A program made the position numbers and the translations under genes. From positions 1 to 27,205 of the IMG/VR virus record IMGVR_UViG_3300022934_000142: a DNA stretch of 27,205 nucleotides. One strand, written 5' to 3'. Positions 11,595 through 24,539 of this stretch are shown piece by piece (the stretch's first letter is position 1; the number at the start of each line of letters is the position of its first letter). Below the pieces are notes generated by a model. That model did no database searches. It worked only from the letters and a program-made list of their open reading frames with translations, and had not been told where the DNA came from. Source of the DNA: a virus.

Positions 11595-11821
11595 TATGCT
11601 ACCTTTACCGTACCACTGTCATTATACAGTGCTCCTGTCTCAAGTCCAGTGGCGCTTGTAGGCAGGTCAGTTAGTGTTATTTTTGTGCCGCGCAACTCAC
11701 CGGGATTGCGTTCTTGTTCAATAAATACTTCCAGCGCACGAACCAAGTCTTGCATATACTGCTGACTATACTCTGGTGTGGCCTCTGGTAGCCTTGGTGG
11801 TGCAATTTCATTACCAGACAT
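11594..11821 (-). CDS. Small conserved virion-module protein
   Basis: This 75-aa protein lies between the nozzle-like gene and the glycine-zipper gene, with one-base TAATG overlaps on both sides. The N-terminal half is Pro-rich and then helical (SQQYMQDLVRALEVFIEQER). The C-terminal half, ELRGTKITLTDLPTSATGLE and then TGALYNDSGTVKVA, is a compact beta-rich module I recognise from small proteins and fibre ends of marine phages, in forms such as LPTSxTGLxxGxxxNDxGTxKV. A tail-attachment or fibre-like role is plausible. No function is established. The full length and the recognisable motif make it a real gene rather than a spacer. Confidence 0.75.
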   Translation of the reverse strand: MSGNEIAPPRLPEATPEYSQQYMQDLVRALEVFIEQERNPGELRGTKITLTDLPTSATGLETGALYNDSGTVKVA

Positions 11822-14800
11822 TAGCGTCTACCATCCTGACGTATATCAACACGCGGACTACCAAGTTTCCACTTTGATTCTAGCGCCTCAGACTCTACAC
11901 GAAGCGCGAAAGAGCGGCCACGAATACGCAAGTCAAGTTGATTGGTAAACTCTTCTACTGGACTTACCGATGTCCTAGATGCTGCACCAGCCGCCGTGTT
12001 TCCAAAGTCCTCACCCGGAAAGTTACGCGCTTTGATAGTAAATGTAGCTTGCGGCGAACTAATGTTTGTTGACCCAGTAAATGTCAGGTCAGGTATCACA
12101 CGGCGTATATATGTAAAGTGATCTCCATCACCGATGTCCATAGCGGCGGACTCAATAAACGAGTCCATAGCTTGACCATCTGCATCATAACCAAACTCGT
12201 GGTTATACAAGTAACCATCTTCGGCGGCAATCGGGAAGTCTCTTGTACCACGATCCAACCACGCTGTTCTGTCTAATGTTCCAAAGTACCAAATTTTATC
12301 CATGTAGTTGTAAACAACATATCTGTTGTTTTCAGTTGAGTCAGCAGATGGATACAACCAAAACACCTCACCAAACTCACTGTTAACTGCACCATAGACT
12401 TTATCAAATTCAGCTAAGTTTATGTCAGCAAAAACCTTGTCTTTTACGGTGCAGGGTAGCTGGGCTGTTTGACCAGCATATACATAAAAGTTATCCAGAC
12501 CCATCCAGAACACAAAGTCTTCTGTTGCTATAGCAGCATTTGGTCCGATGATCGTGATGTTGTTTGCAAGCTGTTGCAGGCCAAACGTAAATGGCGGACC
12601 AATAAACCGCAAAGACGAAAGCGCTGTGTCTGTCCACACCAGTATCTCACGCTTGGTTTCTAGCGCTTTTACAAACGTAGACCCAGAACCGAGGCGCAAG
12701 TCCCCAGCAGTATTGGTTGCGGCTGGATACCAAACAAGCGGGTCTTCTTGATTAGAAAAACGAATAAGTAACGGGTCTTGTATGCCATTACCTTGTGCAG
12801 CAGATAAATCATCATTTAGCCCATCACATCCAAAGGCCAAAACATGACGGTCTCGGTCAGATACCATAATCTGCTTACATATAGTAGGCACAGATGTTTT
12901 TGTTCCCGACCGCGTGGACAACTCCACGGCTCTAGAACCCAACCCATTTGATTTATCCCAGTAATAAATAAATTCATCTCGTGGGTTTATCAGCAAATCT
13001 TCGCCAAAGTTATCATGCGACCACAAACGTATTTGAGTGGTGGTATTCAAAGATGATGGCATACCCCAACCATAGGTGGCTTCGGTAACGGTAGCGCCGC
13101 TTGAATGGACGGCAGCGGGTGTACCAAACAAACCCCTAGAACAGCCTGTTAAGTCGTTTGAAGATATGCCTGTGTACTGAACTATTTCGCTAACTCCGGG
13201 CAACGCTACAGAAATAACAACATACCCAGATGTTGGGAAGCCACTAGTGCTGGTCAAAGGAATGGTAGTATCAGCAGCAGAAATATTTGCAGATAGTGTT
13301 GTACTCGCAGGTGTGTGACCAGAAACGCCACCGTAGCTACCAGCGCCCCAACCTGTGCCGCCAACGGTGGTGTTTAGACCCACGTTTATTTGATACTCAG
13401 CTATTGTTGGGTAAGTAATTGCGGTAATCGTTAGAGTTAAATCATTAGCAGGGGTTGCTCCGCCAAGACTGGTCCCGGCTATTGTTATTGTGTCACTTGC
13501 CGCATAACCTGTGCCTATATTACTAACTTCATCTACAGTGTAAACACCAGACCCGTCTGTGACTATCGTAAACTTAGCGCCTGATCCAGACCCGCTTGTG
13601 CTGGCTTGCGCTACATTTGTGTAACTTACAGAAGTTAAAGTTGCGACAGTTAGAACCAAATCGTTAGCAGGGCTGGTGCCGCCTAAATCTGTACCAGCTA
13701 TTGTGATCGTATCACTGACAGCGTAACCAGAACCAATATCTGTAATTTCATCTACTGTATAAGCTCCAGCGCCATCAGTTGATATGGTAAATTCAGCGCT
13801 TGTGCCACTGCCACTTGTACTGGTTTGAGTTATACCCGTAAAAGTACCAGTACCAATCGAAGAGCCGGAAAGCTGAGTAACAGTTAGCACCAAATCATTA
13901 GCAGGCGTAGCGCCACCAATACTTGTGCCAGCAATAGTGATGGTATCATTTACGGCATAACTAGAGCCAACCGTTGTAATAGCAACACTATACCCACCGT
14001 CACCATCTGTAGTTACGCTAAACTCTGCGCTTGTACCGCTACCACTTGTGCTAGTTTGTGTTACGCCTGTGTGTGTGGTGTTGCCAACAGAAGAGCCAGC
14101 AAGGTCAGTGATCGTAAGCGTTAGATCATGTGTTCCTTTTGTGCCGCCAAGGTTCTGACCTTCAATTAAGATCTCTTCCCCAACAGCGTATCCAGAACCA
14201 ACAGAAGTCACAGATACTGTATAATTACCAGAACTGGCAGTCACACTGAAAACTGCACCCACACCTGTGCCATTTGTGCTTGTCTGAACCACATTTGTAG
14301 TTGTAGCGCTTCCTGTAGATGCGCCGGAAATAGTTACATTACCAACACCTGTGCTACTTGGCGAAGAAAAGGTGGCCGCACCCACACCTGTGCCAGATGT
14401 CCCTACAGTTACTGTGTCAACACTTGTGCCGCCCACACCTGTGCCAGACAATGTAACTGTGCCTACACCAGCGCCGCCCACACCTGTATCACTAGCGTTT
14501 GCTGTTCGTGATGTGCCAGCAGAAGTGACGGTTGAAATTGCGCCGCCAGTTACAGTACCAACTGTTATTGTTAAATTATTTGCTGTGGTGGTTCCGCCAA
14601 GATTTGCACCGTTCACAGTTATAGTATCGCTAGCCGCGTATCCAGTGCCAGCTACAGTAATTGCTGCGACAGTGTATCCCCCATTGCCGTCTGTAGTAAT
14701 AGTAAATTCAGCACCAGTCCCTGTGCCACTAGTAGCATCCTGCGTAACCCCAGTGAATGTTTTTACAAAATCATCAATAAATATTTCATAGCTACTAGCG

Positions 14801-15267
14801 TTTACAACCCTAGATACCTGATGTTCAGCGTTTAGTATTGTAGCCGTTACATTTCCGCCTAAACCTTCAGCATTAGAGAAAATTACAAAGTCGTTTTGAT
14901 TAGCGCCATGATTGGTGTGGTTTACAGTTAGTGTGCTACTGCCGTTGGTAGCCGAAAATGTTACATCGCCTTGAGATGTTGTGGTGCGAATTGGTGTTAC
15001 ATCATTAAATGACGTGCCTTCTTCAACGTAATACTTGAGGTGTGTGCCAACGCCTAGAAAGTTTGACCCATCAAGTGCGATCCAGTTGTGAAGCGCACGG
15101 GCAGCGCCTTGGTAAGTGGAGTCAGAAAACTTTTGCCAGCCGCCAATTTTTTCAGGATAGCCAAGACGGAATCTTATTTTATCACCATCACGCCAGCCGC
15201 CTTCATTAGAGTACGAAGTAATATCGCGGTTGATGCCGGGGCGAAACTGTAGTTTTGTTAGCGGCAT
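11821..15267 (-). CDS. Tail nozzle / tail-tubular-B-like protein with a repeat insertion
   Basis: This 1148-aa protein starts with PLTKLQFRPGINRDITSYSN, a characteristic opening of large podovirus-type tail proteins in marine phages. The C-terminal 510 residues look like a beta-propeller nozzle, with repeated blades such as DPLLIRFSNQEDPLVWYPAA, TKREILVWTDTALSSLRFIG, EDFVFWMGLDNFYVYAGQTA and NRYVVYNYMDKIWYFG. By analogy with P22 gp10 or T7 gp12 it would form the distal tail tube. Residues of about 169-617 appear to interrupt this fold and hold five copies of a beta-rich domain plus a GTGVG-rich stretch. Residues flanking the insertion (SYEIFIDDF and AEYQINVGLNTTVGG) read as if once adjacent. 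AGGTGG lies 7 bases before the ATG. Adjacent genes encode the collar fibre and the 75-aa protein. The function is inferred from sequence pattern. Confidence 0.8.
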   Translation of the reverse strand: MPLTKLQFRPGINRDITSYSNEGGWRDGDKIRFRLGYPEKIGGWQKFSDSTYQGAARALHNWIALDGSNFLGVGTHLKYYVEEGTSFNDVTPIRTTTSQGDVTFSATNGSSTLTVNHTNHGANQNDFVIFSNAEGLGGNVTATILNAEHQVSRVVNASSYEIFIDDFVKTFTGVTQDATSGTGTGAEFTITTDGNGGYTVAAITVAGTGYAASDTITVNGANLGGTTTANNLTITVGTVTGGAISTVTSAGTSRTANASDTGVGGAGVGTVTLSGTGVGGTSVDTVTVGTSGTGVGAATFSSPSSTGVGNVTISGASTGSATTTNVVQTSTNGTGVGAVFSVTASSGNYTVSVTSVGSGYAVGEEILIEGQNLGGTKGTHDLTLTITDLAGSSVGNTTHTGVTQTSTSGSGTSAEFSVTTDGDGGYSVAITTVGSSYAVNDTITIAGTSIGGATPANDLVLTVTQLSGSSIGTGTFTGITQTSTSGSGTSAEFTISTDGAGAYTVDEITDIGSGYAVSDTITIAGTDLGGTSPANDLVLTVATLTSVSYTNVAQASTSGSGSGAKFTIVTDGSGVYTVDEVSNIGTGYAASDTITIAGTSLGGATPANDLTLTITAITYPTIAEYQINVGLNTTVGGTGWGAGSYGGVSGHTPASTTLSANISAADTTIPLTSTSGFPTSGYVVISVALPGVSEIVQYTGISSNDLTGCSRGLFGTPAAVHSSGATVTEATYGWGMPSSLNTTTQIRLWSHDNFGEDLLINPRDEFIYYWDKSNGLGSRAVELSTRSGTKTSVPTICKQIMVSDRDRHVLAFGCDGLNDDLSAAQGNGIQDPLLIRFSNQEDPLVWYPAATNTAGDLRLGSGSTFVKALETKREILVWTDTALSSLRFIGPPFTFGLQQLANNITIIGPNAAIATEDFVFWMGLDNFYVYAGQTAQLPCTVKDKVFADINLAEFDKVYGAVNSEFGEVFWLYPSADSTENNRYVVYNYMDKIWYFGTLDRTAWLDRGTRDFPIAAEDGYLYNHEFGYDADGQAMDSFIESAAMDIGDGDHFTYIRRVIPDLTFTGSTNISSPQATFTIKARNFPGEDFGNTAAGAASRTSVSPVEEFTNQLDLRIRGRSFALRVESEALESKWKLGSPRVDIRQDGRR
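13426..14748 (-). repeat. Five copies of a ~63-aa beta-rich domain inside the nozzle protein
   Basis: Copies lie at about 14560-14748, 14107-14292, 13876-14064, 13645-13833 and 13426-13614. Each follows the pattern TSxSGSGxxAxFxxxTDGxG, YxVxxIxxxGxGYAxxDTIT, IxGxxLGGxTPANDLxLTV. The four right-hand spacings in the protein are 152, 76, 77 and 73 residues, so the first gap equals two periods. The three copies nearest the C-terminus are most alike. Confidence 0.9.
14320..14490 (-). repeat. GTGVG-rich mini-repeats
   Basis: Between the first and second large domain copies, the protein is reduced to repeated TGVG-xx-x-V(T/S) units (residues of about 260-316, for example GGAGVGTVTLSGTGVGGTSV). In the DNA the + strand word acacctgtgcc and close variants recurs several times. 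This looks like slippage-prone low-complexity sequence lying where one more domain copy would be expected. Confidence 0.75.
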
Positions 15268-15275
15268 AAAACCAC

Positions 15276-16388
15276 CTATGTTTTAATAATATAGGTCAAA
15301 ATAAATGTAGGCTGGACGTTGTTGTGTGCCTGACCGTTACCTGTAGGGCTTGAAGTTCCACCTTGCACAGATGAAACATAGCCGGGGCTACCACCAGAAC
15401 CTGTGATACTGTAAAAGCCGCCACCAAAGTCAATGCCGTGAGTGTGTGATGGCAGTTGCGCAGTTGTCAGTGTGTGCGATTGCGAACCAGCCGCACCACC
15501 GAGAACGTCACCATTTAATGGGCTAGTAAGTCTATCAGCAGAAACCCCACCCATATCATCTTTACCAGCAACGACACGACCACGAAGATCAGGAACATTA
15601 AAGTTTTGACCGCTGCCGCCATAGGTATATCCAATAACAGCAAACAAATCGGCTTCTACATCTTTGTCTAAAGACTGACCATAGCAAAGCAGCCAACCTG
15701 TCGGCGCAGTTGCCCCCGCATACGGCATCAACATACCACTAGCAAAAGTATTAGAAGCTCCTAAAGCAGTAAAACCAAGCTGCCCAGACCCATCTGTTGT
15801 TAAAAACTCGTTTGCATTTCCATCAGCTTGCGGATATTTAATGCCATCAATAATAACATCGCCAGTACCGTTTGGTGTAATAGCAATGTCCCCGTTGCTA
15901 ACAGATACAATTGAGTTACCATTTACATCTAAGTTACCGCCAAGTTGTGGACTAGTATCGTCAACCAAATCCGCCGGGACTGCTCTTACTGCGGCACCAG
16001 CGCCAGCACCATCAGCATAAATCCAAGCAGTTTTGCCATTGGAAATAGTTGCGTTTGCGCCAGAGCCTTGTGTAAAGGTAGCTGAATAACCACCTGTAAT
16101 ATTGTTGTAAACTAGGTATACTTTATCCTGATCATTCGGACTAATTGTAATTGTACAATCCGCACCGGGAGTTCCGCCTAATATGAGTGTACGGTAATGA
16201 CCCTCCGACACAGCGCCGTCAGACGTAGTTAAAGTTTTTGTCGGACCCGTCAAGGTAATGTCGCCAACCCCATTGAGGCTGCGGTCAATGATATCAAAAT
16301 TTCTGTTGGTCGTAGTACCCCAAGTTCCAGACTGTTCGCCCGGTCCCGGCTGCTCTATACCTGTATTATCTGTGTAGGTAGATGCCAT
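15276..16388 (-). CDS. Tail fibre with C-terminal phage tail collar domain
   Basis: The N-terminus of this 370-aa protein (TYTDNTGIEQPGPGEQSGTW, then NRNFDIIDRSLNGVGDITL) is a common opening of marine-phage fibres. Residues of about 145-185 carry PQLGGNLDVNGNSIVS and ITPNGTGDVIIDGIKY, a typical shaft module. Residues 218-275 form a tail-collar domain (GMLMPYAGATAPTGWLLCYG, then NVPDLRGRVVAGKDDMGG). The tip has SHTLTTAQLPSHTHG near residues 304-318, whose His-x-His could bind a metal as in T4 short-fibre tips, and ends NNVQPTFILTYIIK. It is probably a trimeric receptor-binding or adsorption fibre. AGGTGG lies just before its ATG, which follows the upstream stop directly. It is next to the nozzle gene, its likely attachment point. 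Confidence 0.9.
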   Translation of the reverse strand: MASTYTDNTGIEQPGPGEQSGTWGTTTNRNFDIIDRSLNGVGDITLTGPTKTLTTSDGAVSEGHYRTLILGGTPGADCTITISPNDQDKVYLVYNNITGGYSATFTQGSGANATISNGKTAWIYADGAGAGAAVRAVPADLVDDTSPQLGGNLDVNGNSIVSVSNGDIAITPNGTGDVIIDGIKYPQADGNANEFLTTDGSGQLGFTALGASNTFASGMLMPYAGATAPTGWLLCYGQSLDKDVEADLFAVIGYTYGGSGQNFNVPDLRGRVVAGKDDMGGVSADRLTSPLNGDVLGGAAGSQSHTLTTAQLPSHTHGIDFGGGFYSITGSGGSPGYVSSVQGGTSSPTGNGQAHNNVQPTFILTYIIKT

Positions 16389-17114
16389 CTAAACCACCTT
16401 TTCTGTCCATATTTCTATTGTACCACCAGCGTTGATTTCTGTCCATGTTCCGCCTGTTGGTACGATTTCTACCCACGCCTCTTGCGTTGAACTATCTGGT
16501 CCATCTGGAAGAACATCCCAGTAAAACTGCCCTGCTGCTGTTTGTATAAATACAGCAGAGACTTCTGATTCAATAAGTTTAACAAAACCACCAGAAGCAA
16601 TTTGCGTAAACAAAGAAACGATATCTGCTTCAGCAAGCTGTATAATACCGCCAAGTGAGCTTTGCGTAAACTCTGCTGTTTGGTTAGACAGAAGAACACG
16701 CACAATGTTTTCAGATGTTGTTTGTGTAAAGTTAGCAGATTGTTCTGACACACCAGTAGCAAATCGCACACCTTCGGTGTCTTGCGTAAAGTTAGCCGAG
16801 TATGAAGATGATGCATCAAATATAGTAATCGGCGTTGTTGTTTGATCAAAGCTCGTTACACTTGCAGACACACCTGTGGCAAAGCGTGTAGGCACCGTGG
16901 TCTGTGTGAATACAGTCGATGACTCCATAATGCCAACGAGAATGCCAACACCAATAGTCGTCTTTGTTGCAATGGCCTCTAACGCTGCTTCACCAACCAT
17001 TGTTAAGTTGCCAGCATTTGATTTAGTAAAGTTCGCAGACGCGGTTTCAGAGGCGGTAAGAATTACCCCCTGATCCGATATAGCCTTTTCTGATATGGCA
17101 ACCGCGCCTAGCAT
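16389..17114 (-). CDS. Repeat-built structural protein with 20-residue FTQ units
   Basis: This 241-aa protein opens with MLGAVAISEKAISDQG, a start related to those of small virion proteins in marine phages. Residues 21-200 consist of nine units of exactly 20 residues, each centred on a motif like SANFTQ at unit positions 6-11 (Q at residues 71, 91, 111, 131, 151, 171 and 191; K at 31 and 51). The regular alternation of small and hydrophobic residues suggests stacked beta strands, a beta-solenoid or fibre shaft. The C-terminus changes to Trp-rich sequence (EAWVEIVPTGGTWTEINAGG), perhaps a cap or attachment point. It lies between a 56-aa gene (TAATG overlap) and the collar fibre. Function is unknown; a spacer or shaft in the tail is my inference. 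Confidence 0.8.
   Translation of the reverse strand: MLGAVAISEKAISDQGVILTASETASANFTKSNAGNLTMVGEAALEAIATKTTIGVGILVGIMESSTVFTQTTVPTRFATGVSASVTSFDQTTTPITIFDASSSYSANFTQDTEGVRFATGVSEQSANFTQTTSENIVRVLLSNQTAEFTQSSLGGIIQLAEADIVSLFTQIASGGFVKLIESEVSAVFIQTAAGQFYWDVLPDGPDSSTQEAWVEIVPTGGTWTEINAGGTIEIWTEKVV
16515..17054 (-). repeat. Nine tandem 60-bp coding repeats, no insertions or deletions
   Basis: The + strand words ttgcgtaaa, ttgtgtaaa, ttgatcaaa, ttgtataaa and related forms recur exactly 60 bases apart, at about 16542, 16602, 16662, 16722, 16782, 16842, 16902, 16962 and 17022. Each encodes F-T-Q or a variant (ATK, FDQ, FIQ, FTK). The sequence between them has diverged, but the spacing is constant, so length is under stronger constraint than sequence. 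Confidence 0.92.
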
Positions 17115-17284
17115 TAGTCAGCTTCCTGTATGGTTAGTTCACCCGCATCAACTTGGCGCAGGATTTCTGCGTAGTGGCGGTTGGCTGGGTCAAGGGGTAC
17201 AAACATTACGTTTTCATCAATCGTAATTTTGATAGTTTTGTTTACACCATCTTCAGCAACATATTGAGCAGACGTAATAATCAT
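17114..17284 (-). CDS. 56-aa conserved small phage protein
   Basis: This short gene fills the space between the fibre at 17281 and the repeat protein at 17114. Its ATG overlaps the upstream stop (ATGA) and its TAA overlaps the downstream start (TAATG). The protein starts MIITSAQYVAEDGVNKTIKI and ends ANRHYAEILRQVDAGELTIQ plus EAD. The C-terminal part is a Pro-Ala-Asn-Arg-His-Tyr helix followed by an acidic end. I recognise closely similar small proteins from the fibre regions of marine phages, so the gene is real. The function is unknown. Part of the pattern (short beta hairpin, then NRHYxEIxxxVxxG) resembles small tail-associated phage proteins, where it might help assembly. Confidence 0.8.
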   Translation of the reverse strand: MIITSAQYVAEDGVNKTIKITIDENVMFVPLDPANRHYAEILRQVDAGELTIQEAD

Positions 17285-18309
17285 AGTTCTGCATCTCCTG
17301 TATATTGAGCAATATTGTAAACTTGACCTGTGGAATTAGCAGTAACAGTAGACCTAAAACCACTTGCGGTTGTAGTGAGAGTGCTAACTGTGCCACCTGA
17401 GTTATCACTGGTAATAGCCGCTGTAGGAGAAGCCCTCATTTCAGGAGAAAATATAAGCGTTCCACGCCTTAATGTATCTGAATTACCAGTGTTTCTTACA
17501 ATGTGAAAATCTATTGTTGTGGTTATTTTTTGATAAAAACGTCTGCATTTCTCAAGCGTAGTGCCGTAGCCCTCGTGTTCAAACGGCGTGGCTGTCTGGC
17601 CTACTTCAAGCTGAACGCCTGTGAGATAAAACGTGCCTGTTTGCGCTATAAAGTTTACTTGGTCATCATGTGCAAAATCGTCAGTTGCAGTGTATGCACC
17701 CCATCCTGTGTGTGGTGTTCCTGCAACATCTGTTCCTGCGGCAAGAACCCAATTAATATTGATACCTGCGCCATTATCATCATTTATTGTACCGCCTGTA
17801 TCGCCGTCAATCGTAATAGTTTTATATTCCCAAGTATCTGCCGTAGATATTGTAAAGCTAGGCGTATTGCTTCTTACTGCATCATCTTGATAAAACAAAA
17901 CGCTATATTTGCCAGTAAGACTGCTACGAACCCAAAAAGACAATGTTAAAGATTTAGCAGAAGAATTCCCATAAGCAAGATGTTGAAGATTTTGTGCTTC
18001 TATTTTATATGTTATTCTAAAATTTTCATCAGCGGCTAAAGTAGTTTCTGCTGTAGTTACTTCTACTTTAAAACTATTTGCAAAGCCCTGTCCACTTGGC
18101 ACCGTTGTAGACTGAGATTGGGTAAAAGCAAGTTCGTCAGTATTTGCTGCATTAGTAGCAATCCTATCAACTGTCTGATAGCCAGATGATGTAGATGATG
18201 CACCACGCTGTGCCACCTGCATAGCCCCATTGATGATGAGGTTGCGTCCTGTCAGGCCACCCGCATCAGCGCTACCAGCTAAATCTGCTATGTCTCTTGC
18301 TCTGCTCAT
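17281..18309 (-). CDS. Tail fibre with carbohydrate-binding-like jelly-roll domain
   Basis: The first ten residues of this 342-aa protein (MSRARDIADL) are a common docking start in marine-phage fibres. From residue 20 on (TGRNLIINGAMQVAQRGASS, GYQTVDRIATN) the sequence follows a beta-sandwich domain well known from phage fibres. It continues through SLTLSFWVRSSLTGKYSVLF, WEYKTITIDGDTGGTINDDN and TGTFYLTGVQLEVGQTATPF, and ends the core at EHEGYGTTLEKCRRFYQK. This layout resembles carbohydrate-binding modules, so receptor or surface-glycan binding is likely. The last 80 residues are a variable Ser/Thr-rich beta region and probably the tip. The stop overlaps the start of the 56-aa gene. It is the largest fibre of the array and a good candidate for a main receptor binder. 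Confidence 0.85.
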   Translation of the reverse strand: MSRARDIADLAGSADAGGLTGRNLIINGAMQVAQRGASSTSSGYQTVDRIATNAANTDELAFTQSQSTTVPSGQGFANSFKVEVTTAETTLAADENFRITYKIEAQNLQHLAYGNSSAKSLTLSFWVRSSLTGKYSVLFYQDDAVRSNTPSFTISTADTWEYKTITIDGDTGGTINDDNGAGININWVLAAGTDVAGTPHTGWGAYTATDDFAHDDQVNFIAQTGTFYLTGVQLEVGQTATPFEHEGYGTTLEKCRRFYQKITTTIDFHIVRNTGNSDTLRRGTLIFSPEMRASPTAAITSDNSGGTVSTLTTTASGFRSTVTANSTGQVYNIAQYTGDAEL

Positions 18310-18322
18310 GTTTAATTACCCT

Positions 18323-18739
18323 TTACGCTACCATGAATGTTATAGCGAGAGATGTCCAACTTGCGTTGTTCGTCATAGTTTGTGCAATCACGTCACCGTC
18401 CGTATCGACATCAAGTCTTGTGATAGAGGTGTTTTGGTTTGCACAAGCAAATATAAGTCGAAGTGAGGGTCTATAACCAGACGGGAGTGTAAAGATTGTA
18501 CTTCCGTTAGACGCGCTGTTCCCGTTTACCAAACCTTGGACACTCACAATGTTGCCTATTTTTCTGTACTGAACATCTCCATAGGGACTGGAAAAGTGCG
18601 TGTATGGTGAGTTTAATGTTGGAGTTATCCAACCACTGTCATTTTGGGGCATTGTGACAATGCCACTACTATCAATCGTCAGCGCGGTGTTGCTGTTCGT
18701 TGGATCTTGGATCTCACTCACTTTCAAGATGCTGGTCAT
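18323..18739 (-). CDS. Small fibre-tip protein (YRKIGN type)
   Basis: The N-terminus of this 138-aa protein, MTSILKVSEIQDPTNSNTAL plus TIDSSGIVTMPQ, is the shared docking module of this array. The rest, from QYRKIGNIVSVQGLVNG through IFTLPSGYRPSLRLIFAC to a hydrophobic end, matches a fibre-head domain common in phages (pattern YRKxGNxVxxxGxV ... TLPxGYRPS). It probably forms a small trimeric beta knob. Spacing to the neighbours is 13 and 5 bases, and the Shine-Dalgarno signal is weak, so translation may depend on coupling. Its receptor is unknown. Confidence 0.8.
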   Translation of the reverse strand: MTSILKVSEIQDPTNSNTALTIDSSGIVTMPQNDSGWITPTLNSPYTHFSSPYGDVQYRKIGNIVSVQGLVNGNSASNGSTIFTLPSGYRPSLRLIFACANQNTSITRLDVDTDGDVIAQTMTNNASWTSLAITFMVA

Positions 18740-18744
18740 ATTTT

Positions 18745-19302
18745 TTACCCTGCGATTTCTGTTGCACTGATGAGAGAGATGAAACGCTCATACGCATCGT
18801 TATCTGTGTCAGTAACTGTTTTATTCAGATGAAACACAGGGTTACTGCCTGCACTCGTTTGAATACCTATCTTATATGTTATTTGACTAGTCGAGCTAGG
18901 TGTATCGTAAAACTGAAAAGTCCCAGTGCTTTCAGGTGTGCTGGCGGCATCTGATGTCCAGTAACTTAATTTAAACGGTGCAACTCCTGTTGTTCTGTTG
19001 CCAGCAGTTGGGTGTCCTAGTTTAGTCGTGTCTCTAAAAAAGAATACAGCGGAGTTGTATGTTGCACCCGCATTGCTCCATTCACCGTTCACCATACCTT
19101 CTAATTTAATTACACTGTTTGTTGATTGCGGCGTGATGTTAACAGTTAGATCAGTAAGCGCTATATTTGAACCTGTTGTAATCGTTATCGTATTAGTGCC
19201 AGTGAACATCGTGTATTGAGTTTGAATAATACCACCTTGAGGCATAATGATCTTGTTGCCAACAGTCTTCGCAGCAATGTTGTCTACATAAAGGGTACTC
19301 AT
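18745..19302 (-). CDS. Small fibre-tip protein ending in an EIAG motif
   Basis: I start this protein (185 aa) at the ATG at 19302 rather than 30 bases upstream, because GAGGAG lies 7 bases before it and the product then begins MSTLYVDNIAAKTVGNKIIM, matching the docking module of the neighbouring genes. The body follows a fibre-head family known from cyanophages: VNITPQSTNSVIKLEGMVN, then FYDTPSSTSQITYKIGIQT, and the end SLISATEIAG. It is probably a beta-sandwich trimer at a fibre end. The start overlaps the stop of an 18-codon reading frame (ATGA). Function in adsorption is inferred from family and context. Confidence 0.8.
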   Translation of the reverse strand: MSTLYVDNIAAKTVGNKIIMPQGGIIQTQYTMFTGTNTITITTGSNIALTDLTVNITPQSTNSVIKLEGMVNGEWSNAGATYNSAVFFFRDTTKLGHPTAGNRTTGVAPFKLSYWTSDAASTPESTGTFQFYDTPSSTSQITYKIGIQTSAGSNPVFHLNKTVTDTDNDAYERFISLISATEIAG

Positions 19303-19355
19303 AACCACTCCTCGCTGGGTACGTCGGGCCAAGTCGGGTTGTCTGGATTAGTCAT
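19299..19355 (-). CDS. Possible 18-aa micro-ORF between two fibre genes
   Basis: Between the C1q-like gene and the EIAG-type gene there is an in-frame ATG, two bases after the upstream TGA, that reads MTNPDNPTWPDVPSEEWL and stops at a TGA overlapping the next ATG. The peptide is acidic and rich in Pro and Trp. GTGGGGTG sits in front of it. It could be a translated micro-gene, a coupling leader that brings ribosomes to the next start, or simply the 50 bases separating two genes. Its clean ATGA junction, like those of the surrounding genes, is the reason for listing it. Confidence 0.4.
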   Translation of the reverse strand: MTNPDNPTWPDVPSEEWL

Positions 19356-19357
19356 AA

Positions 19358-19840
19358 TCACCCCACTAAATATCCACCGAAACTACTATACAACGGGAAA
19401 TACTCCCCACTGTTTCCACGCATGGCGACTACTTGATTAGCATTAAGTTGAAGTGTCTCGCTAAAAGTTACGCTATTGTCGCCAGAGGCATCTTCTTGAC
19501 TGGCAAAATAAGTGTTACTGTAAGCGGTGCCATCTATCATTATATAAAACGTGCCTAATGTAGAGGCGTTGTTTACATAAAAACGACCGTGAATATGATA
19601 AAGACCATCAATCGGAGCAGTAAATTCGCAATCCGTACTATCGTAATGACCACCAATGTTATAATCGACTGTGGTCATTGTGGTAACTTTACCAGTACCA
19701 AACGACACCCAAGATCCACCTGAACCATAAGCACGAAACGCTGGTCGCGCTGGTGTAGTCACACGCCCACTGCTATCAATCGTCAGCGCACTTGTACCAG
19801 CGGCATTGTTAATTGTATCTACATTCAATATCGAAGCCAT
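19358..19840 (-). CDS. C1q/TNF-like jelly-roll fibre-tip protein
   Basis: The N-terminal module of this 160-aa protein, MASILNVDTINNAAGTSALT and IDSSGRVTTP, is shared with the array. From ARPAFRAYGSGG onwards the pattern is that of C1q-like trimeric domains: an opening P-AF, a central F-APIDGLYHIHGRFYV, then LQLNANQVVAMRG and a final SSFGGYLVG. In C1q-like proteins the conserved G-Y-F positions build a ten-strand jelly roll, and the end motif packs the trimer. It may bind protein or glycan receptors. It ends two bases before the micro-ORF and begins 8 bases after the neighbouring gene. A second C1q-like gene is at 24534-25031. Confidence 0.8.
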   Translation of the reverse strand: MASILNVDTINNAAGTSALTIDSSGRVTTPARPAFRAYGSGGSWVSFGTGKVTTMTTVDYNIGGHYDSTDCEFTAPIDGLYHIHGRFYVNNASTLGTFYIMIDGTAYSNTYFASQEDASGDNSVTFSETLQLNANQVVAMRGNSGEYFPLYSSFGGYLVG

Positions 19841-19847
19841 CCGCGCC

Positions 19848-20576
19848 TCACAGTATCGTCAAGTTGCCATCAACCGTAATGCTGGTTGAGGAATCAATGG
19901 TTAGCGGCCCAATAGCCAAAGCATTTTTGGTTGAACCAATGGTGGTGTTTTCGTCAACCGTCTGGTTATTAGTACGGAAAACAGCCGTATCAACAGTAGT
20001 GTTGGTAGTCTGAAACTGCGGCGCGGTTATCTCGCCTACAAACGTACCGCCGCTGGCCTTGCTCACTGTGTCCGTCACGCTAAATGCGCGGAATGCACGA
20101 ATGACAACCTCATCATTCAGCGCCGCGCCACTGGCTAACGTAATCGTGGTGCCACTGCTTGGTGTGTAGTCTACCGTGTCCAGATGAATACCATTTAGGT
20201 ACACATCTACATCATTGCCACTAAACGCCAAAATAGCGCCTGCATTGTCCGCCCCAGTAAATGCTGTCTGACCTGCGGTTGCAATGTACTTATATACCTG
20301 CATTGCGTAAGATAGGGGCTGGTCAACGGCGCGACCAAAGAAGCGCACAACAATCTCATCAGTGTTGGCTGGTGCTTCGGAAAAGGTCAGTGTGTTCGCG
20401 TAGGCTGTGTATGAAGCGCTGGAACCCGGTTCCTGAACCACGTTACCAACAGTCACAAGTATAGCTTCACCGCTGGCTACATTTTGCGCCAGTGTGAAAG
20501 CTGTAGTAGACCCGTCCCCAGTGAACTTCTGGAACGTGATATCACCTACATTTGGATCTATACCTATGTAAGCCAT
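19848..20576 (-). CDS. Fibre protein with two GDGST-type beta domains and a GPLTI tip
   Basis: Residues of about 15-83 of this 242-aa protein form a beta domain with the signature FTGDGSTTAFTL ... VGNVVQEPGSSASYTAY ... LTFSEAP ... VVRFFG. Residues of about 95-165 repeat the same fold (GQTAFTG, DVYLNGIHLDTVDYTPSSGT, LNDEVVIRAFRAF). The end, NALAIGPLTIDSSTSITVDG plus NLTIL, is a tip motif shared with the proteins at 24047 and 21815. Such domains occur in fibre shafts of cyanophage-like fibres. It lacks the MASILKVD opening and instead starts MAYIGIDPNVGDITFQKF. Its start lies in the repeated junction block after the upstream HGDLA stop. It is probably a fibre shaft on which the smaller tips could assemble (inference). 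Confidence 0.8.
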   Translation of the reverse strand: MAYIGIDPNVGDITFQKFTGDGSTTAFTLAQNVASGEAILVTVGNVVQEPGSSASYTAYANTLTFSEAPANTDEIVVRFFGRAVDQPLSYAMQVYKYIATAGQTAFTGADNAGAILAFSGNDVDVYLNGIHLDTVDYTPSSGTTITLASGAALNDEVVIRAFRAFSVTDTVSKASGGTFVGEITAPQFQTTNTTVDTAVFRTNNQTVDENTTIGSTKNALAIGPLTIDSSTSITVDGNLTIL

Positions 20577-20593
20577 TACGCGAGGTCTCCGTG
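20574..20593. repeat. Junction block copy (exact)
   Basis: On the + strand this reads cattacgcgaggtctccgtg. On the coding strand it holds the codons for H-G-D-L-A, the TAA stop and the ATG of the gene at 19848, with GGAGA nine bases before that ATG. It is identical to the blocks at 21412 and 23240. Confidence 0.93.
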
Positions 20594-20986
20594 AATGACA
20601 ATTTGCAGATATGAATAATCAATAAAAGACGTTGCGCTATTATCTCCATAAGTGACAGCAAAATAAAATTTTGATGCTGTACGAGTTTTGCCCGGTATTG
20701 TACTATCATCATAAACACCGCCCATATACGCATTAGCTACAGAAAAATAACCAATATTAAATGCAGATGTGTAAGTGTTATTAGACATTCCATTAGTCCA
20801 ATTCAAATCACCCCGTCCTGTAGACGTGTCTGTAAGACTGCTTGTGTTAAAGCTGTCATCTAGTTGAGGCACAGTCTGGTCAAATAAAGCCCAAGCCTTC
20901 GCACTACCATTAACCACATAAGTAGTATCGACAGACTCGGTGCCTGCATTATTGGCAATGGTGGTGACTCTAAGTTCGCTTGCCAT
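20576..20986 (-). CDS. Array fibre paralogue 1 (KAW ... HGDLA type)
   Basis: This 136-aa protein opens MASELRVTTIANNAGTESVD, followed by YVVNGSAKAWALFDQ. Its core has DDSFNTSSLTDTSTGRGDLN and WTNGMSNNTYTSAFN, and a variable part rich in aromatic residues runs to YSYLQIVIHGDLA. The KAW-x-DSFNxSSxTDxxTG pattern is a known fibre-head domain of marine phages. It is one of six tandem paralogues. Both boundaries are TAATG overlaps within the conserved junction block. Among the six, its closest relative at the KAW segment is the gene at 22844, with a shared 21-base DNA stretch. Confidence 0.82.
   Translation of the reverse strand: MASELRVTTIANNAGTESVDTTYVVNGSAKAWALFDQTVPQLDDSFNTSSLTDTSTGRGDLNWTNGMSNNTYTSAFNIGYFSVANAYMGGVYDDSTIPGKTRTASKFYFAVTYGDNSATSFIDYSYLQIVIHGDLA
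20891..20910. repeat. Internal KAW DNA block, copy in paralogue 1
   Basis: The + strand word ccaagccttcgcactaccat (plus one further base) encodes NGSAKAW and is identical to the block at 23150. A shorter core, caagccttcg, also occurs in paralogues 2 and 3. Confidence 0.9.
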
Positions 20987-21003
20987 TATGCGAGGTCTCC
21001 GTG
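20984..21003. repeat. Junction block copy (one mismatch)
   Basis: The block between paralogues 2 and 1 differs from the exact copies at one base (cattatgcg for cattacgcg). It encodes the HGDLA end of paralogue 2, the stop, and the start of paralogue 1. Confidence 0.93.
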
Positions 21004-21414
21004 TGCATTTGTCATTTGAATGTGTGCATCATATTCGCCAGAGTTGGTTGCTAAGTTTCTTTGTACTTGTGTTGTATAGTTAGATGCAGTTGGTGCGGCA
21101 CCCCTGCGTATGCCTATAGCGACAACATACTGTGTATCAGTACCATCATTTAAACCTGCAATTCCTGAAACAGAATAATTAGCACTTGAGAATGATGACG
21201 ATAAATTTATTTGCGCCTCGCCAGTAGAAACATCACTAACACTTGAATTATTGAAACTGTCATCTACACCGGGAGTTGCTTGATTATATCTTACCCAAGC
21301 CTTCGACAGCCCCTGCTGAAGTGACTGCGTAGCCGCGCCGCCTTCGCTAGTAACAGTTATGTCACCAGCCGATGCAATCCCCCGCAGTTCATCTACCTTT
21401 AGGATACTAGCCAT
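20986..21414 (-). CDS. Array fibre paralogue 2 (KAW ... HGDLA type)
   Basis: The N-terminus of this 142-aa protein, MASILKVDELRGIASAGDIT, carries the shared docking motif. After QSLQQGLSKAWVRYNQ comes DDSFNNSSVSDVSTGEAQIN and SSSFSSANYSVSGIAGLN. A variable tip region (VVAIGIRRGAAPTASNYTTQ) follows, and the protein ends QMTNAHGDLA. The SLxQGL(S/A)K segment is shared with the paralogue at 23242 rather than with its direct neighbours, so adjacent genes are not simple recent duplicates. Both ends lie in junction blocks with one-base overlaps. A role as fibre tip is inferred from the domain. Confidence 0.82.
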   Translation of the reverse strand: MASILKVDELRGIASAGDITVTSEGGAATQSLQQGLSKAWVRYNQATPGVDDSFNNSSVSDVSTGEAQINLSSSFSSANYSVSGIAGLNDGTDTQYVVAIGIRRGAAPTASNYTTQVQRNLATNSGEYDAHIQMTNAHGDLA

Positions 21415-21431
21415 TACGCGAGGTCTCCGTG
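21412..21431. repeat. Junction block copy (exact)
   Basis: The block between paralogues 3 and 2 is identical over 20 bases to those at 20574 and 23240. It encodes HGDLA, the stop and the next start, with GGAGA in Shine-Dalgarno position. Confidence 0.93.
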
Positions 21432-21815
21432 TACTGTTACCTGCATCATTTGTGGGTCAGTTAAATTTAAAGCATTTTCAGAATAGTTAGTGCCTCTAAT
21501 TGCCGCAGTGCTGTGCAACCCATAAGTGTTATCCGCATCTCCTGTGGTAAAAATATTAGTGTAGGAGTTGGTGCTTCCCCTTACAGAAGAAGAACCATTA
21601 GCAGAATAATCACCGTTACCTAGTGTGTTGGTGAAATTACCTTCGTATATACCAGTTCCCTCATCCGTAAAACTAGCTATGTTAAAACTGTCCCGTAATG
21701 CTGGTGTTTGCGCGTTAAGATTGAACCAAGCCTTCGCAGCACTCTGCTTCGTTAGAGTAACTGGCCCAGTTCCTGCGGCATCGGTCAGAGTATCTACATT
21801 CAACACACTTGGCAT
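21414..21815 (-). CDS. Array fibre paralogue 3 (KAW ... HGDLA type)
   Basis: This 133-aa protein starts MPSVLNVDTLTDAAGTGPVT and LTKQSAAKAWFNLNAQTP, followed by ALRDSFNIASFTDEGTGIYE and GNFTNTLGNGDYSANGSSSV. It ends TDPQMMQVTVHGDLA. The PVTLTKQ-x-AAK segment is shared with the paralogue at 23631, and the ALRDSFNIAS segment with the one at 22844, so different parts of the gene have different nearest relatives. Its upstream boundary (TGATG) follows the 63-aa tip gene and lacks the junction block; its 3' end carries the block. It is a probable fibre-tip protein. Confidence 0.82.
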   Translation of the reverse strand: MPSVLNVDTLTDAAGTGPVTLTKQSAAKAWFNLNAQTPALRDSFNIASFTDEGTGIYEGNFTNTLGNGDYSANGSSSVRGSTNSYTNIFTTGDADNTYGLHSTAAIRGTNYSENALNLTDPQMMQVTVHGDLA

Positions 21816-22006
21816 CAGACAATACTCCAGTAACCATTAACGGTGACGGTGGCGTTCTGGGTAATCGGACCCGCGCTTAGACCATTTTGGTCAGCGTCAA
21901 TGGTAAAGTCAGTTGAGATCGTCTGACCATTACGGCGCACGACATTAATGTCAGTTGTTTCCTGACGATTGTCCACCATATTTGCTTCGGCTTTACTAAG
22001 GGCCAT
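21815..22006 (-). CDS. Stand-alone fibre tip module (GPIT type), 63 aa
   Basis: This 63-aa protein has an N-terminal helix (MALSKAEANMVDNRQE) and then VVRRNGQTISTDFTIDADQN and GLSAGPITQNATVTVNGYWS. The second half is homologous by pattern to the last 50 or so residues of the fibre proteins at 19848 (NALAIGPLTI...) and 24047 (NALCAGPLTL...). Here the module exists as its own gene without the GDGST domains. It could form a small trimeric knob or complete a longer fibre by non-covalent assembly. It overlaps the next gene start by TGATG and lies 9 bases after the 119-aa gene. Confidence 0.75.
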   Translation of the reverse strand: MALSKAEANMVDNRQETTDINVVRRNGQTISTDFTIDADQNGLSAGPITQNATVTVNGYWSIV

Positions 22007-22015
22007 TGTGTCCCC

Positions 22016-22375
22016 CTATGCGTAAGGGTTGTCCCCACAGCATGAAGGCCATGCGGCTTTAAGAGCAATGATGCTGTCTGCATCATCACCAGCGGTAGGT
22101 GCATCACGAAGAGCCTGCTTGTCAGCAACGATCTGAGTTGTGTCAGAGTTTGCTTCCAATGCCTTCATGTAATCAGTGTCCAGTGCGGCAAGCAAAGGTG
22201 TCCGCGCCTCGCGTACCTTGTCAGCAAAGATTTCTTTTGCTTTGTCTAAGTCTTCAGTGATTACGCTACCGGACAGTGTCCACGCACCACGAAAGTCACG
22301 ATTTGATGGGACGGTTGCAGTTGACGCCTCAATCTGATTACCGTCTTTGTCCACGATGTATGTTGTAACAGCCAT
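22016..22375 (-). CDS. Tail-fibre-assembly / chaperone-like small protein
   Basis: This 119-aa protein begins VTTYIVDKDGNQIEASTATV, then RDFRGAWTLSGSVITEDLDK. The rest is helical: AKEIFADKVREARTPLLAAL, KALEANSDTTQIVADKQALR, DAP, and LKAAWP near the end. The K-x-x-LRDxP ... AWP pattern resembles the C-terminal part of phage tail-assembly chaperones that act on fibres (Caudo_TAP-like), and this composition is common in marine phages. It is acidic and unlike its beta-rich neighbours, consistent with an assembly factor rather than a virion component. It is encoded in the middle of the fibre array. The chaperone role is inference. Confidence 0.65.
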   Translation of the reverse strand: MAVTTYIVDKDGNQIEASTATVPSNRDFRGAWTLSGSVITEDLDKAKEIFADKVREARTPLLAALDTDYMKALEANSDTTQIVADKQALRDAPTAGDDADSIIALKAAWPSCCGDNPYA

Positions 22376-22385
22376 TATAATACTC

Positions 22386-22844
22386 CTATGCGGCTAGTTC
22401 ATCAGATATGCGCCACGAATTGCGCCATTCTCTAGTATGCGGTAATTGTTGCTTTTTGCATATTACCATCTTCGGCTTATTGCCGCTATCCCAATTCTTC
22501 CAGACGTGCTGTGGCACATCTTTTTGAATTAGGTATTCAATTGCTTCTTCTTCAGTCATTGCTGGCATTGGCTCTGTCTGGTGCAACAGATAGCCCCGTG
22601 TATGCTTCTTGAAGTCGGGCTGTGCTTCGTCCTTTGCCAGTTCCCAGTAAACCCACACAGGTGGTAAAATGCCACCCTGCAAAGCGCAAGCCATCCAGTT
22701 GGGGTCAGGCACAAGTATCTTAGCGCACTCATCCACGCTGTCTTCGTAGACAACACGATAGTCTGACTGCACACCGTCTAGGTTTTCCTTTGCCCAGCAT
22801 AGGCGGTCAAACAAATGTGTCCCTTGAAACTCTGGTGTTTGCAT
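22386..22844 (-). CDS. Conserved marine-phage protein, possible fibre assembly factor
   Basis: This 152-aa protein is acidic, Trp-rich and mixed alpha/beta: MQTPEFQGTHLFDRLCWAKE, VDECAKILVPDPNWMACALQ, WVYWELAKDEAQPDFKKHTR. It ends MVICKKQQLPHTREWRNSWR followed by ISDELAA. The LPxTREWRNSWR end resembles a short motif seen in phage proteins encoded beside tail-assembly chaperones (LPxDRxFRNAW). No enzyme motif or membrane segment is visible. It starts in a diverged copy of the junction block, one base overlapping the upstream stop, and precedes the 119-aa chaperone-like gene by 10 bases. The two probably work together. Function is not established. Confidence 0.65.
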   Translation of the reverse strand: MQTPEFQGTHLFDRLCWAKENLDGVQSDYRVVYEDSVDECAKILVPDPNWMACALQGGILPPVWVYWELAKDEAQPDFKKHTRGYLLHQTEPMPAMTEEEAIEYLIQKDVPQHVWKNWDSGNKPKMVICKKQQLPHTREWRNSWRISDELAA

Positions 22845-22861
22845 TATGCTAAGTCTCCGTG
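22842..22861. repeat. Junction block copy (diverged)
   Basis: The block at the 3' end of paralogue 4 reads cattatgctaagtctccgtg, three mismatches from the exact form, but still encodes HGDLA, a TAA stop and the ATG of the 152-aa gene. GGAGA is kept. Confidence 0.88.
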
Positions 22862-23242
22862 AATTGTAGCAGTGTGGTCAATATCTCGGTCAACACTTGA
22901 GTCCGACCTACCACCGTGAATGATAAATGCGGTAGTTGTTGCCCCGCCATTAGCACCTCCACCCGTACCCAATAAAGAACTAATGCCCGAACTAGTCGCA
23001 TCGTGCGGTGGATTTGAATTAGGTTTAGAATAATTGGCGTTACTCATAGCAGAGGTGAAAGTGTGCGTATAAATGCCTGTTCCGCCATCAGTTAAACTAG
23101 CAATGTTAAATGAATCCCTTAATGCAGAGCCATCTGCTTGTCCGTTTGTCCAAGCCTTCGCACTACCATTCACAACATAGTTCGTGGCGATTGACCCAGC
23201 GGTGCTGTGTTCCAGCGTATCTGCTACAATTTTACCAGCCAT
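22844..23242 (-). CDS. Array fibre paralogue 4 (KAW ... HGDLA type)
   Basis: This 132-aa protein opens MAGKIVADTLEHSTAGSIAT, then NYVVNGSAKAWTNGQADG, ALRDSFNIASLTDGGTGIYT and HTFTSAMSNANYSKPNSNPP. A Gly/Ser-rich variable region (LLGTGGGANGGATTTAFIIH) leads to DIDHTATIHGDLA. It is the clearest example of the DSFNxxSxTDGGTGxY domain. The VVNGSAKAW part matches paralogue 1 at the DNA level over 21 bases, while the GTGIYTHTFTSAM part is closest to the paralogue at 23242. Both ends are TAATG overlaps, with the junction block better conserved at its start than at its end. Confidence 0.82.
   Translation of the reverse strand: MAGKIVADTLEHSTAGSIATNYVVNGSAKAWTNGQADGSALRDSFNIASLTDGGTGIYTHTFTSAMSNANYSKPNSNPPHDATSSGISSLLGTGGGANGGATTTAFIIHGGRSDSSVDRDIDHTATIHGDLA
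23150..23169. repeat. Internal KAW DNA block, copy in paralogue 4
   Basis: This block is identical to the one at 20891 over 21 bases. It marks the transition between the N-terminal docking part and the variable tip domain in both genes. Confidence 0.9.
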
Positions 23243-23259
23243 TACGCGAGGTCTCCGTG
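23240..23259. repeat. Junction block copy (exact)
   Basis: The block between paralogues 5 and 4 is identical over 20 bases to those at 20574 and 21412, about 2 kb away, although the genes between them have diverged strongly. Confidence 0.93.
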
Positions 23260-23631
23260 AATAATTGCATTGTGTAAACTATCTGTATTAGAGCCGGATG
23301 AAGTGTGTACTCTTATTTCAAGATTAGTAGTGGTTGTGTTAGTTGAGCCATAACGTGCAAATCTAGTCCCCCCACCAACAGTTAGTGACAAACCACTACT
23401 ATCCATCTGAACACTCATAGCATTAGTAAGTGTGTGAGTGTAAGTGCCAGTGCCATCATCACTTGAAGAACTAAAGTTTAGTGTGTCCTGTTGACCAGCG
23501 GCACTGTCTGCACCTAACCAGCCCTTCGCTAGCCCCTGTTCCAGAGACATAGTAGCAGTAGCGCCAACCGTCACGGTGATGTCGTTGGCGGTGGTCTTGC
23601 CAGTGAGGGTATCTACTTTGATTTCAGACAT
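23242..23631 (-). CDS. Array fibre paralogue 5 (KGW ... HGDLA type)
   Basis: This 129-aa protein starts MSEIKVDTLTGKTTANDITV and continues ATMSLEQGLAKGWLGADSAA, QDTLNFSSSSDDGTGTYTHT and LTNAMSVQMDSSGLSLTVGG. The variable tip ends TSSGSNTDSLHNAIIHGDLA. Its KAW is changed to KGW and the DSFN motif to DTLN, so it is among the more diverged copies. The start is a TGATG overlap and the end lies in an exact copy of the 20-base junction block. The fibre-tip assignment rests on paralogy with its neighbours. Confidence 0.8.
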   Translation of the reverse strand: MSEIKVDTLTGKTTANDITVTVGATATMSLEQGLAKGWLGADSAAGQQDTLNFSSSSDDGTGTYTHTLTNAMSVQMDSSGLSLTVGGGTRFARYGSTNTTTTNLEIRVHTSSGSNTDSLHNAIIHGDLA

Positions 23632-23649
23632 CAGGCTAGGTCTCCAATG
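23629..23649. repeat. Junction block copy (strongly diverged)
   Basis: At the 3' end of paralogue 6 the sequence encodes IGDLA, then a TGATG stop/start overlap. GGAGACCTAG is still recognisable. It marks the upstream edge of the block-containing region. Confidence 0.7.
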
Positions 23650-24050
23650 ATTGATGCAAAGCTGCCAAGAAGATCACTGTCTGCCCCTGCATTAGTTTGG
23701 TCTGAACCATAGCGTGTATTTATTTGCACCTGTGTTGTAGATGGTGCAACGCTACCTTCCATTTGCATACCAGATATTCCTCTTTCGCCCCCAGATGCTT
23801 CTGAAGAAGCCGTCCTATTATGCACCCCACCAAGAAAACATCTGTCAGTTGACGAAGAATATGCGTTAGTAAACGTGCTAGTAAAGTTTCCAGCAGAATC
23901 ATCTGTCAAACTGCTTTGATTTAGACTCCCTTCAACAGATTGGTTTCTAGCATCATAGTTTACCCAATACTTAGCCGCCTCTTGCTTAGTCAGCGTGACT
24001 GGACTGGTGCCATCGCTGGCTGTGATTGTGTCTGCGCGTAGTTCACTCAT
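23631..24050 (-). CDS. Array fibre paralogue 6 (KYW ... GDLA type)
   Basis: An ATG 72 bases upstream is possible, but it would add a Trp/Tyr-rich leader encoded over the end of the previous gene. The ATG at 24050 gives MSELRADTITASDGTSPVTL, matching the docking motif of the array, and forms an ATGA junction. The 139-aa product continues KQEAAKYWVNYDARN, EGSLNQSSLTDDSAGNFTST and FTNAYSSSTDRCFLGG. The tip includes ISGMQMEGSVAPSTTQVQIN and ends FASIIGDLA, so the His of HGDLA is replaced by Ile. This is the first of the six paralogues in transcription order and one of the most diverged. Confidence 0.8.
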   Translation of the reverse strand: MSELRADTITASDGTSPVTLTKQEAAKYWVNYDARNQSVEGSLNQSSLTDDSAGNFTSTFTNAYSSSTDRCFLGGVHNRTASSEASGGERGISGMQMEGSVAPSTTQVQINTRYGSDQTNAGADSDLLGSFASIIGDLA

Positions 24051-24529
24051 GCTATCACCAATGTACCACCAGTAGAAACTGTGATAACCACCCCTGTTGC
24101 TAACGTCAATGGCCCTGCACACAGAGCATTGTCTGTGCCAGCAATTGTCACGCTTGTGTTTAGCTCTTTTTCATGTACGCGGAAGATGTCACCTCTGCCG
24201 CTGGCTGTGTCGCCTGTCGCCCCATTTTCCCCCTGAAAGTAACCAGCAGATCTAAAGCTAATGGTACGTTCAGAAAACCCACGATACACGACATACACGT
24301 TGTTCGTCCCAGATGACGGCGCGGCGTCAAAGGTCAGTGAGGTGCCGTTGGCTGTATATGACTTGCCAACACCCGGCTCCTGCTGGACGTTGTTTACAAA
24401 TACCTCTAGCTCTTCAGATACGTTCACGGCTCGGTTTAGTGTGAACACGGTCGTTGAACCATCGCCACTGAAATACTGGCTGGTTGGAGACTCTAGCGAT
24501 TTTGCGGGTGCGCCGCCTACATAGCTCAT
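24047..24529 (-). CDS. Fibre protein with one GDGST-type domain and a GPLTL tip
   Basis: I start this protein (160 aa) at the ATG at 24529, five codons inside the longest frame, because it follows the repeated junction GGATAAAGACATG. The domain SQYFSGDGSTTVFTLNRAV ... VFVNNVQQEPGVGKSYTAN ... LTFDAAPSSGTNNVYVVYRG is the same type as in the protein at 19848. The end, NALCAGPLTLATGVVITVST and GGTLVIA, is the shared tip module. Between them lies GYFQGENGATGDTASGRGDI, a short collagen-like or linker stretch. It is a probable fibre shaft or tip, placed symmetrically to the 19848 gene on the other side of the array. Confidence 0.8.
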   Translation of the reverse strand: MSYVGGAPAKSLESPTSQYFSGDGSTTVFTLNRAVNVSEELEVFVNNVQQEPGVGKSYTANGTSLTFDAAPSSGTNNVYVVYRGFSERTISFRSAGYFQGENGATGDTASGRGDIFRVHEKELNTSVTIAGTDNALCAGPLTLATGVVITVSTGGTLVIA

Positions 24530-24539
24530 GTCTTTATCC
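24527..24539. repeat. Second junction word GGATAAAGACATG, copy 1
   Basis: On the coding strand it contains a Gly codon, the TAA stop of the C1q-like gene, AGAC and the ATG of the GDGST-type fibre gene. The identical 13 bases recur at 25358. Confidence 0.8.

Follow-up and report, generated by a model that had tools for sequence, protein, structure and literature searches.

The number of repeats is known to set the length of the shaft in viral fibres. In adenovirus, a eukaryotic virus, the fibre shaft is a triple beta-spiral of approximately 15-residue repeats and a proven trimer, and phage tail proteins of the short fibre type are usually trimers as well. For beta-solenoids the rise is approximately 4.8 Ångström per turn. 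We report on a gene for a 241-residue protein that consists largely of 20-residue repeats and that is present on a virus record from IMG/VR, 27205 bases long (the window, i.e. the whole stretch of DNA that was analysed). As in the adenovirus fibre, length in the shaft that we propose here would be given by the number of short beta repeats, but the repeat length differs (20 residues compared to approximately 15), and the adenovirus fibre was not among the matches in a PDB sequence search with the family. On balance, our data make it somewhat probable that the protein, built from repeats and rich in beta structure, belongs to the tail of a marine phage with a short tail (LUZ24/P22-like), where it is an appendage or spacer with a length that changes by whole units.

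The repeat gene is located on the minus strand at positions 16389-17114, with its ATG at 17114 and the TAG stop ending at 16389, according to the list of open reading frames and their translations. Its N-terminal 20 residues (MLGAVAISEKAISDQGVILT; 17055-17114), which align with those of the relatives as M-F/L-G-x-x-A-x-S-E, are followed by nine contiguous 20-residue units (residues 21-200; 16515-17054), and the protein ends with 41 tryptophan-rich residues (GGTWTEI, WTEKVV; 16392-16514) that are strongly conserved across the family. The sequence-only reading, which had noted nine coding repeats with an exact period of 60 bases at 16515-17054, was borne out to the base: all nine units are in register from unit 1 (17054-16995) to unit 9 (16574-16515), each is 60 bases long and there are no indels. 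It had also described the recurring codons as "F-T-Q-like", which is the right wording since literal F-T-Q is present in just five of the nine units. Specifically, the anchor column, unit position 9, is F in eight of nine units, position 10 is T in seven and position 11 is Q in seven and K in the remaining two, and position 15 is G in six. Unit 2 (GEAALEAIATKTTIGVGILV; 16935-16994) is of an F-less GVGILV type that recurs in the relatives. Between the anchors the sequence has indeed diverged while unit length was held, the mean pairwise identity among the window units being 0.27. Autocorrelation of residues 21-200 (BLOSUM62) gave z = 11 at lag 20 relative to 2000 shuffles, and across lags 5 to 40 none of the shuffles reached the lag-20 score of the window protein. 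At the DNA level, identity was 0.43, 0.42 and 0.42 at lags of 60, 120 and 180 bases, compared to a mean of 0.28 for lags divisible by three.

Searches with the window protein returned no match over cut-off in Pfam-A or NCBIfam 20 and no credible one in PHROGs (version 4), and the relatives gave no credible match. Reprolysin_4 (E 0.013, below its own cut-off) and similar weak Pfam and PHROGs matches were rejected. PDB sequence searches using three alignments gave chance-level matches only (IgA1 protease, E 0.014; an S-layer protein, 0.44; ribosomal uL16, 0.23), and alignment A4 had no match among the PDB sequences. Likewise, tblastn with the window protein gave no match in 50,697 phage records, a scan of bacterial genomes with the family alignment gave no relative, and searches of open-licence PubMed Central papers listed none that visibly describes this 20-residue repeat family, which is weak evidence of absence. 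Judged by sequence, the family appears to be unlisted in Pfam-A, PHROGs, NCBIfam and the PDB. It is missing from the libraries searched, yet readily found in marine viral contigs, in nearly all cases beside one and the same fibre gene.

To collect relatives the IMG/VR viral contigs were scanned with the window protein (5 loci), with alignment A1 (29 loci) and with three of the relatives as queries, which gave 79 (best 80 of 101), 8 and 80 (best 80 of 137) loci. A 20-column profile was then scanned over the plus-strand open reading frames of 200 collected loci. This found at least 198 proteins in which the units number three or more, at least 154 of them distinct and with the window protein included; one of the 154 (an open reading frame of L058) was a false positive that was later dropped. 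There are thus at least approximately 150 distinct relatives on marine viral contigs that share a short N-terminus, 20-residue units and a tryptophan-rich C-terminus, and the tryptophan-rich segment after the last unit is present in alignments A2 and A5. Among the matches listed, the spacing between units is exactly 20 residues in 1153 of 1257 cases (154 distinct proteins, with the L058 false positive), and over 36 representatives of loose clusters in 295 of 320. The window subfamily, with Phe at unit position 9, comprises at least 93 proteins (again including the one from L058), and 600 of its 693 spacings are 20; a second subfamily comprises at least 61 proteins, with 553 of 564 spacings exactly 20. 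Profile comparison with hhalign relates the two (probability 97.7%, E 1.5e-12; aligned over 216 columns, the tryptophan-rich end among them), where it should be kept in mind that shared repeats and composition can inflate profile scores between repeat proteins. That unit length is strict, as had been suggested from the window, holds exactly for the window itself, but in the family it is relaxed: among the matches listed 21-residue units account for 84 of the 693 spacings in the window subfamily and 9 of the 564 in the second, a single 26-residue unit occurs in five proteins, and in L054 the repeat run is broken by an interruption of 69 residues.

The number of units among the relatives listed varies from approximately 5 to at least 44, the larger values being 14, 18, 31, 40 and 44, and most of the proteins scored as having just 3 or 4 units either run off a contig end or have units below the threshold. 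The longest run, in L038, has 44 consecutive units in 967 residues without any indel. Pairwise comparison of relatives (849 pairs with at least 50% identity) revealed 72 pairs with internal gaps of at least 4 in the repeat region. In these, 98 of 150 gaps are multiples of 20, where one in twenty is expected by chance; the pairs share ancestry and are not independent, and the 98 gaps do not equal 98 events. Whole 20-residue blocks are also absent from some relatives in alignment A4. Repeat number hence varies, and mostly by whole units, as the sequence-only reading would have it. Its stronger expectation, that length differences among relatives would always be multiples of 20 in this region, fails for the other 52 gaps. 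With ends that are alike and a natural series from approximately 5 to 44 units, the relation between repeat number and appendage length, or host reach, is testable.

The repeat gene is under purifying selection. Compared with four relatives, dN/dS for the whole gene is 0.18-0.26 and for the repeats 0.15, 0.17, 0.24 and 0.15 (gapless genes of equal length). Some long members have near-identical adjacent units, for example units 31 and 32 of L038 (0.95 identity). We also observed that the F-less GVGILV-type unit recurs irregularly in the long members L038, L041, L043 and L027; the motif is found in units 3, 6, 13, 19, 28 and 39 of L038 and in units 2, 13 and 26 of L041. This hints that many units were duplicated as a block or, alternatively, that a special turn is spaced along the array.

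In the arrangement that we favour, the run of 20-residue units would be flanked by the short N-terminal and the tryptophan-rich C-terminal segments, and each unit would form a pair of short beta strands with two loops and stack on the next. Every unit would then add an equal step, and because of this gain or loss of whole units would alter the length and leave the fold intact. Structure prediction of the window protein as a monomer (AlphaFold2, 23 aligned sequences) gave a failed model, with strands and loops throughout (mean pLDDT 37.2, pTM 0.24). For an 18-unit relative, L027, the pLDDT was 47.7, with 223 of 442 residues at 50-70 and none reaching 70, and the block means were approximately 50-63 through much of residues 61-270. 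This low-confidence model has the shape of a coil, in which every 20 residues contribute two short strands that lie mostly at unit positions of approximately 5-9 and 16-20. In 538 Phe-type units an alternation of residues is seen along the unit, hydrophobicity is highest in columns F9 and I/V18, and among the loop positions G15 is the most conserved; the two hydrophobic columns together with the conserved Gly are in line with a pair of short strands that face each other. Taken as it is, the L027 model favours one 20-residue unit per coil. The earlier suggestion that one unit makes one turn in a beta stack is thus weakly supported by L027, and the failure of the window protein's own model, with a pLDDT of 37, counts against the favoured arrangement.

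Foldseek searches of BFVD and the PDB with the L027 model gave no match at E ≤ 0.001. The top structures according to VIA-align, which merely re-ranks the Foldseek matches (all with E > 0.001) and hence indicates shape class and no relatives, are solenoids: CsgA (Z 19.4, rmsd 10.3), RsaA (17.8, 4.6) and the 9NA tailspike (16.0, 4.2). The ranking suggests a solenoid-like shape of the model, nothing further. CsgA of Pontibacter korlensis (PDB 8c50; 309 aligned residues, 8% identity, Foldseek E 0.46) and the L027 model are both stacked coils of short repeats; however, CsgA is a curli subunit and not a phage protein, and with RsaA and the 9NA tailspike close behind it represents a shape class rather than a relative. 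Moreover, the curlin family is absent from the Pfam matches of the window protein and five relatives at E ≤ 1.

The repeats could also be read as an interwoven homotrimeric shaft like the adenovirus triple beta-spiral, in which the 20-residue unit is a strand-turn-strand element, and the length is again set by unit number but with a larger rise per unit. That phage tail proteins of the short fibre type are usually trimers, the complete failure of the monomer prediction for the window protein, which fits an obligate oligomer, and the alternation of hydrophobic positions together with the conserved Gly all point in this direction. On the other hand, the low-confidence model of the 18-unit L027 is a coil of one chain that has solenoid-like matches, and the unit is longer than the approximately 15 residues of adenovirus shafts. 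We regard a trimeric shaft as possible but rather doubtful. If instead the favoured single-chain coil is a beta-solenoid with the usual rise, the shaft would be approximately 4 nm long with 9 units and approximately 21 nm with 44.

The genes surrounding the repeat gene are those of a tail module. Immediately upstream is a 56-residue open reading frame (17114-17284, minus strand), the stop of which overlaps the repeat-gene ATG by one base and which has a weak match to phrog_5784 (unknown function). Downstream, the ATG of a 370-residue short tail fibre with a Pfam Collar domain (15276-16388, minus strand; N-terminus MASTYT...GTWG) abuts the repeat-gene stop, and this is followed by a P22-gp10-like tail hub or nozzle protein of 1148 residues (11821-15267, minus strand; phrog_3287). 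As judged by phmmer, the short tail fibre comes next in 134 of the 135 relatives with at least 400 bases downstream (the miss is L094), and of the 81 with at least 3500 bases 78 have a nozzle further on (the misses are L041, L043 and L162). The position of the repeat gene in the tail module is fixed, with the fibre and then the nozzle after it. We would see the repeat protein as the shaft or spacer, possibly a rigid one, of a tail appendage to which the neighbouring Collar-domain fibre and the nozzle would also belong. A further-reaching reading is that we are dealing with an uncatalogued class of tail length-rulers, in which 20-residue beta coils, approximately 5 to at least 44 of them stacked, set the reach from the nozzle to the receptor-binding fibre, and marine phages tune this reach to the host surface by gain and loss of whole units; this we consider speculative and, as a whole, rather improbable.

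Two features of the neighbourhood are noted in addition. Upstream of the repeat gene, positions 17281-24544 (minus strand) carry approximately a dozen short tail-fibre-like genes with similar N-termini (MAS.LKVDTI...), several with C-termini ending in HGDLA; two tested genes of this array match phrog_11355 "tail fiber protein", and relatives have comparable arrays ahead of the repeat gene, with differing members. The nozzle-like protein of the window (11821-15267) has 1148 residues compared to 625 in the close relatives L001 and L004. The approximately 520 extra residues are largely tandem repeats of approximately 70 residues (SGSGTSAEFTI...GYA..DTITI.G..LGG), parts match cyanophage structural proteins annotated as gp7 or baseplate wedge, and other relatives have nozzle inserts of differing lengths.

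A different role, in which the repeat protein is not part of the virion but a repetitive, chaperone-like helper in folding or assembly, with a tryptophan-rich end that binds the adjoining fibre while it is assembled, has to be weighed against the appendage reading. The same fibre gene adjoins in 134 of 135 relatives, which would suit such a helper. Moreover, in the record of phage phiM5 gp16, gp17 and gp19 are marked "detected in phage particle proteome" and gp18 is not, and this is evidence against a virion role, at least for phiM5 gp18, a marginal and distant homologue (hhalign probability 89.5%, over N-terminal residues 2-84 only). However, arrays of up to 44 units in 967 residues would be unusual for a phage chaperone, the layout is like that of structural repeats, and other members are annotated, by annotation alone, as adhesins, and we find a helper role unlikely. 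Even less probable is an adhesin or decoration protein of low complexity and loose structure, with units that are regular through recent unequal duplication and not through a length constraint, as could be read from the near-identical neighbours in L038 and the low AlphaFold2 confidence, because the window units are highly diverged yet exact in length, dN/dS is low and the 20-residue spacing is kept across the cluster representatives.

Among the named phages, cultured examples carry members of the wider family. Methylophilales phage Venkman EXVC282S encodes gp51 (QLF88126.1), a protein of 238 residues with a period-20 z of 12.3 that matches the window family with an hhalign probability of 90.8%. 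As for the window protein, its C-terminus is tryptophan-rich and its gene is followed by tail collar and stabilization (nozzle) genes; its units differ in that they follow the pattern G-x-A-S-I-S-G-T-A-T-L-T and have no Phe column. According to its isolation paper, Venkman has a short tail as seen by TEM, although tail structures may have been lost (PMC8163748).

The window also encodes a protein with the Pfam Gp80 domain ("Podophage GP4 fiber I") over cut-off (25949-27013, minus strand), which marks the tail module as a neighbour and is not a homologue of the repeat protein. Using phmmer, a Gp80-type gene was found as the immediate upstream neighbour in 55 of the 137 relatives with at least 600 upstream bases and anywhere upstream in 28 of 73 with at least 3500, and Gp80 was over cut-off in the whole records of six of eight relatives. 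From 306 records with a Gp80-type gene 20 were examined, four of which (MW202879, MW202462, MW202481 and Venkman) had already been found via the repeat protein, and genes adjoining Gp80 or lying between Gp80 and the nozzle were scored. The period-20 z was at least 4 in nine of the 20: Venkman as above, MW202462 (11.1), MEP402 gp62 (10.3), MW202481 (10.1), MW202879 (9.9), MEP401 gp59 (9.4), C72C1 CDS0008 (5.7), Ochrobactrum phage OH gp46 (5.7) and DSL-LC06 (4.2). In the Methylophilales phages MEP401 and MEP402 and in C72C1 and OH the repeat gene is situated directly after the Gp80-type gene; they share the 20-residue period with the window protein but differ from it in unit sequence, and MEP401 and MEP402 are without the WTE-type tail. 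Values of 2.6 to 3.4 were obtained in four records (phiM5, CRP-4, CRP-5 and PVJ1) and values below 2 in six (Lietuvens, Megabear, CcrSC, ACP17, MW202496 and Mvi-JY20), and Octadecabacter DB virus 2 is the one record without a computed z. Other periods were stronger than 20 residues in some of these, i.e. 8 residues in CRP-4, CRP-5 and PVJ1, 10 residues, slightly, in OH (6.1) and phiM5 (3.8), and 40 residues in DSL-LC06 (6.3). The link between the repeat gene and Gp80 is frequent, not general.

In Psychrobacillus phage PVJ1 (L211 9402-10427) and Sporosarcina phage Lietuvens (L213 9403-10326), in which contractile-tail genes are present, the gene after Gp80 encodes N-terminal repeats of approximately 20 residues followed by DUF2313 (Lietuvens annotation), with z for the whole protein of 2.6 and 1.6, respectively; here a similar repeat may have been fused to a baseplate-type protein. 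Finally, our analysis corrects misleading public names in the wider family (L202 7974-8690, L214 15802-16578 and L203 7605-8435), such as the ubiquitin ligase name of Venkman gp51 ("putative E3 ubiquitin-protein ligase HERC6") and "serine-rich adhesin" in Manatee Spring MAGs.
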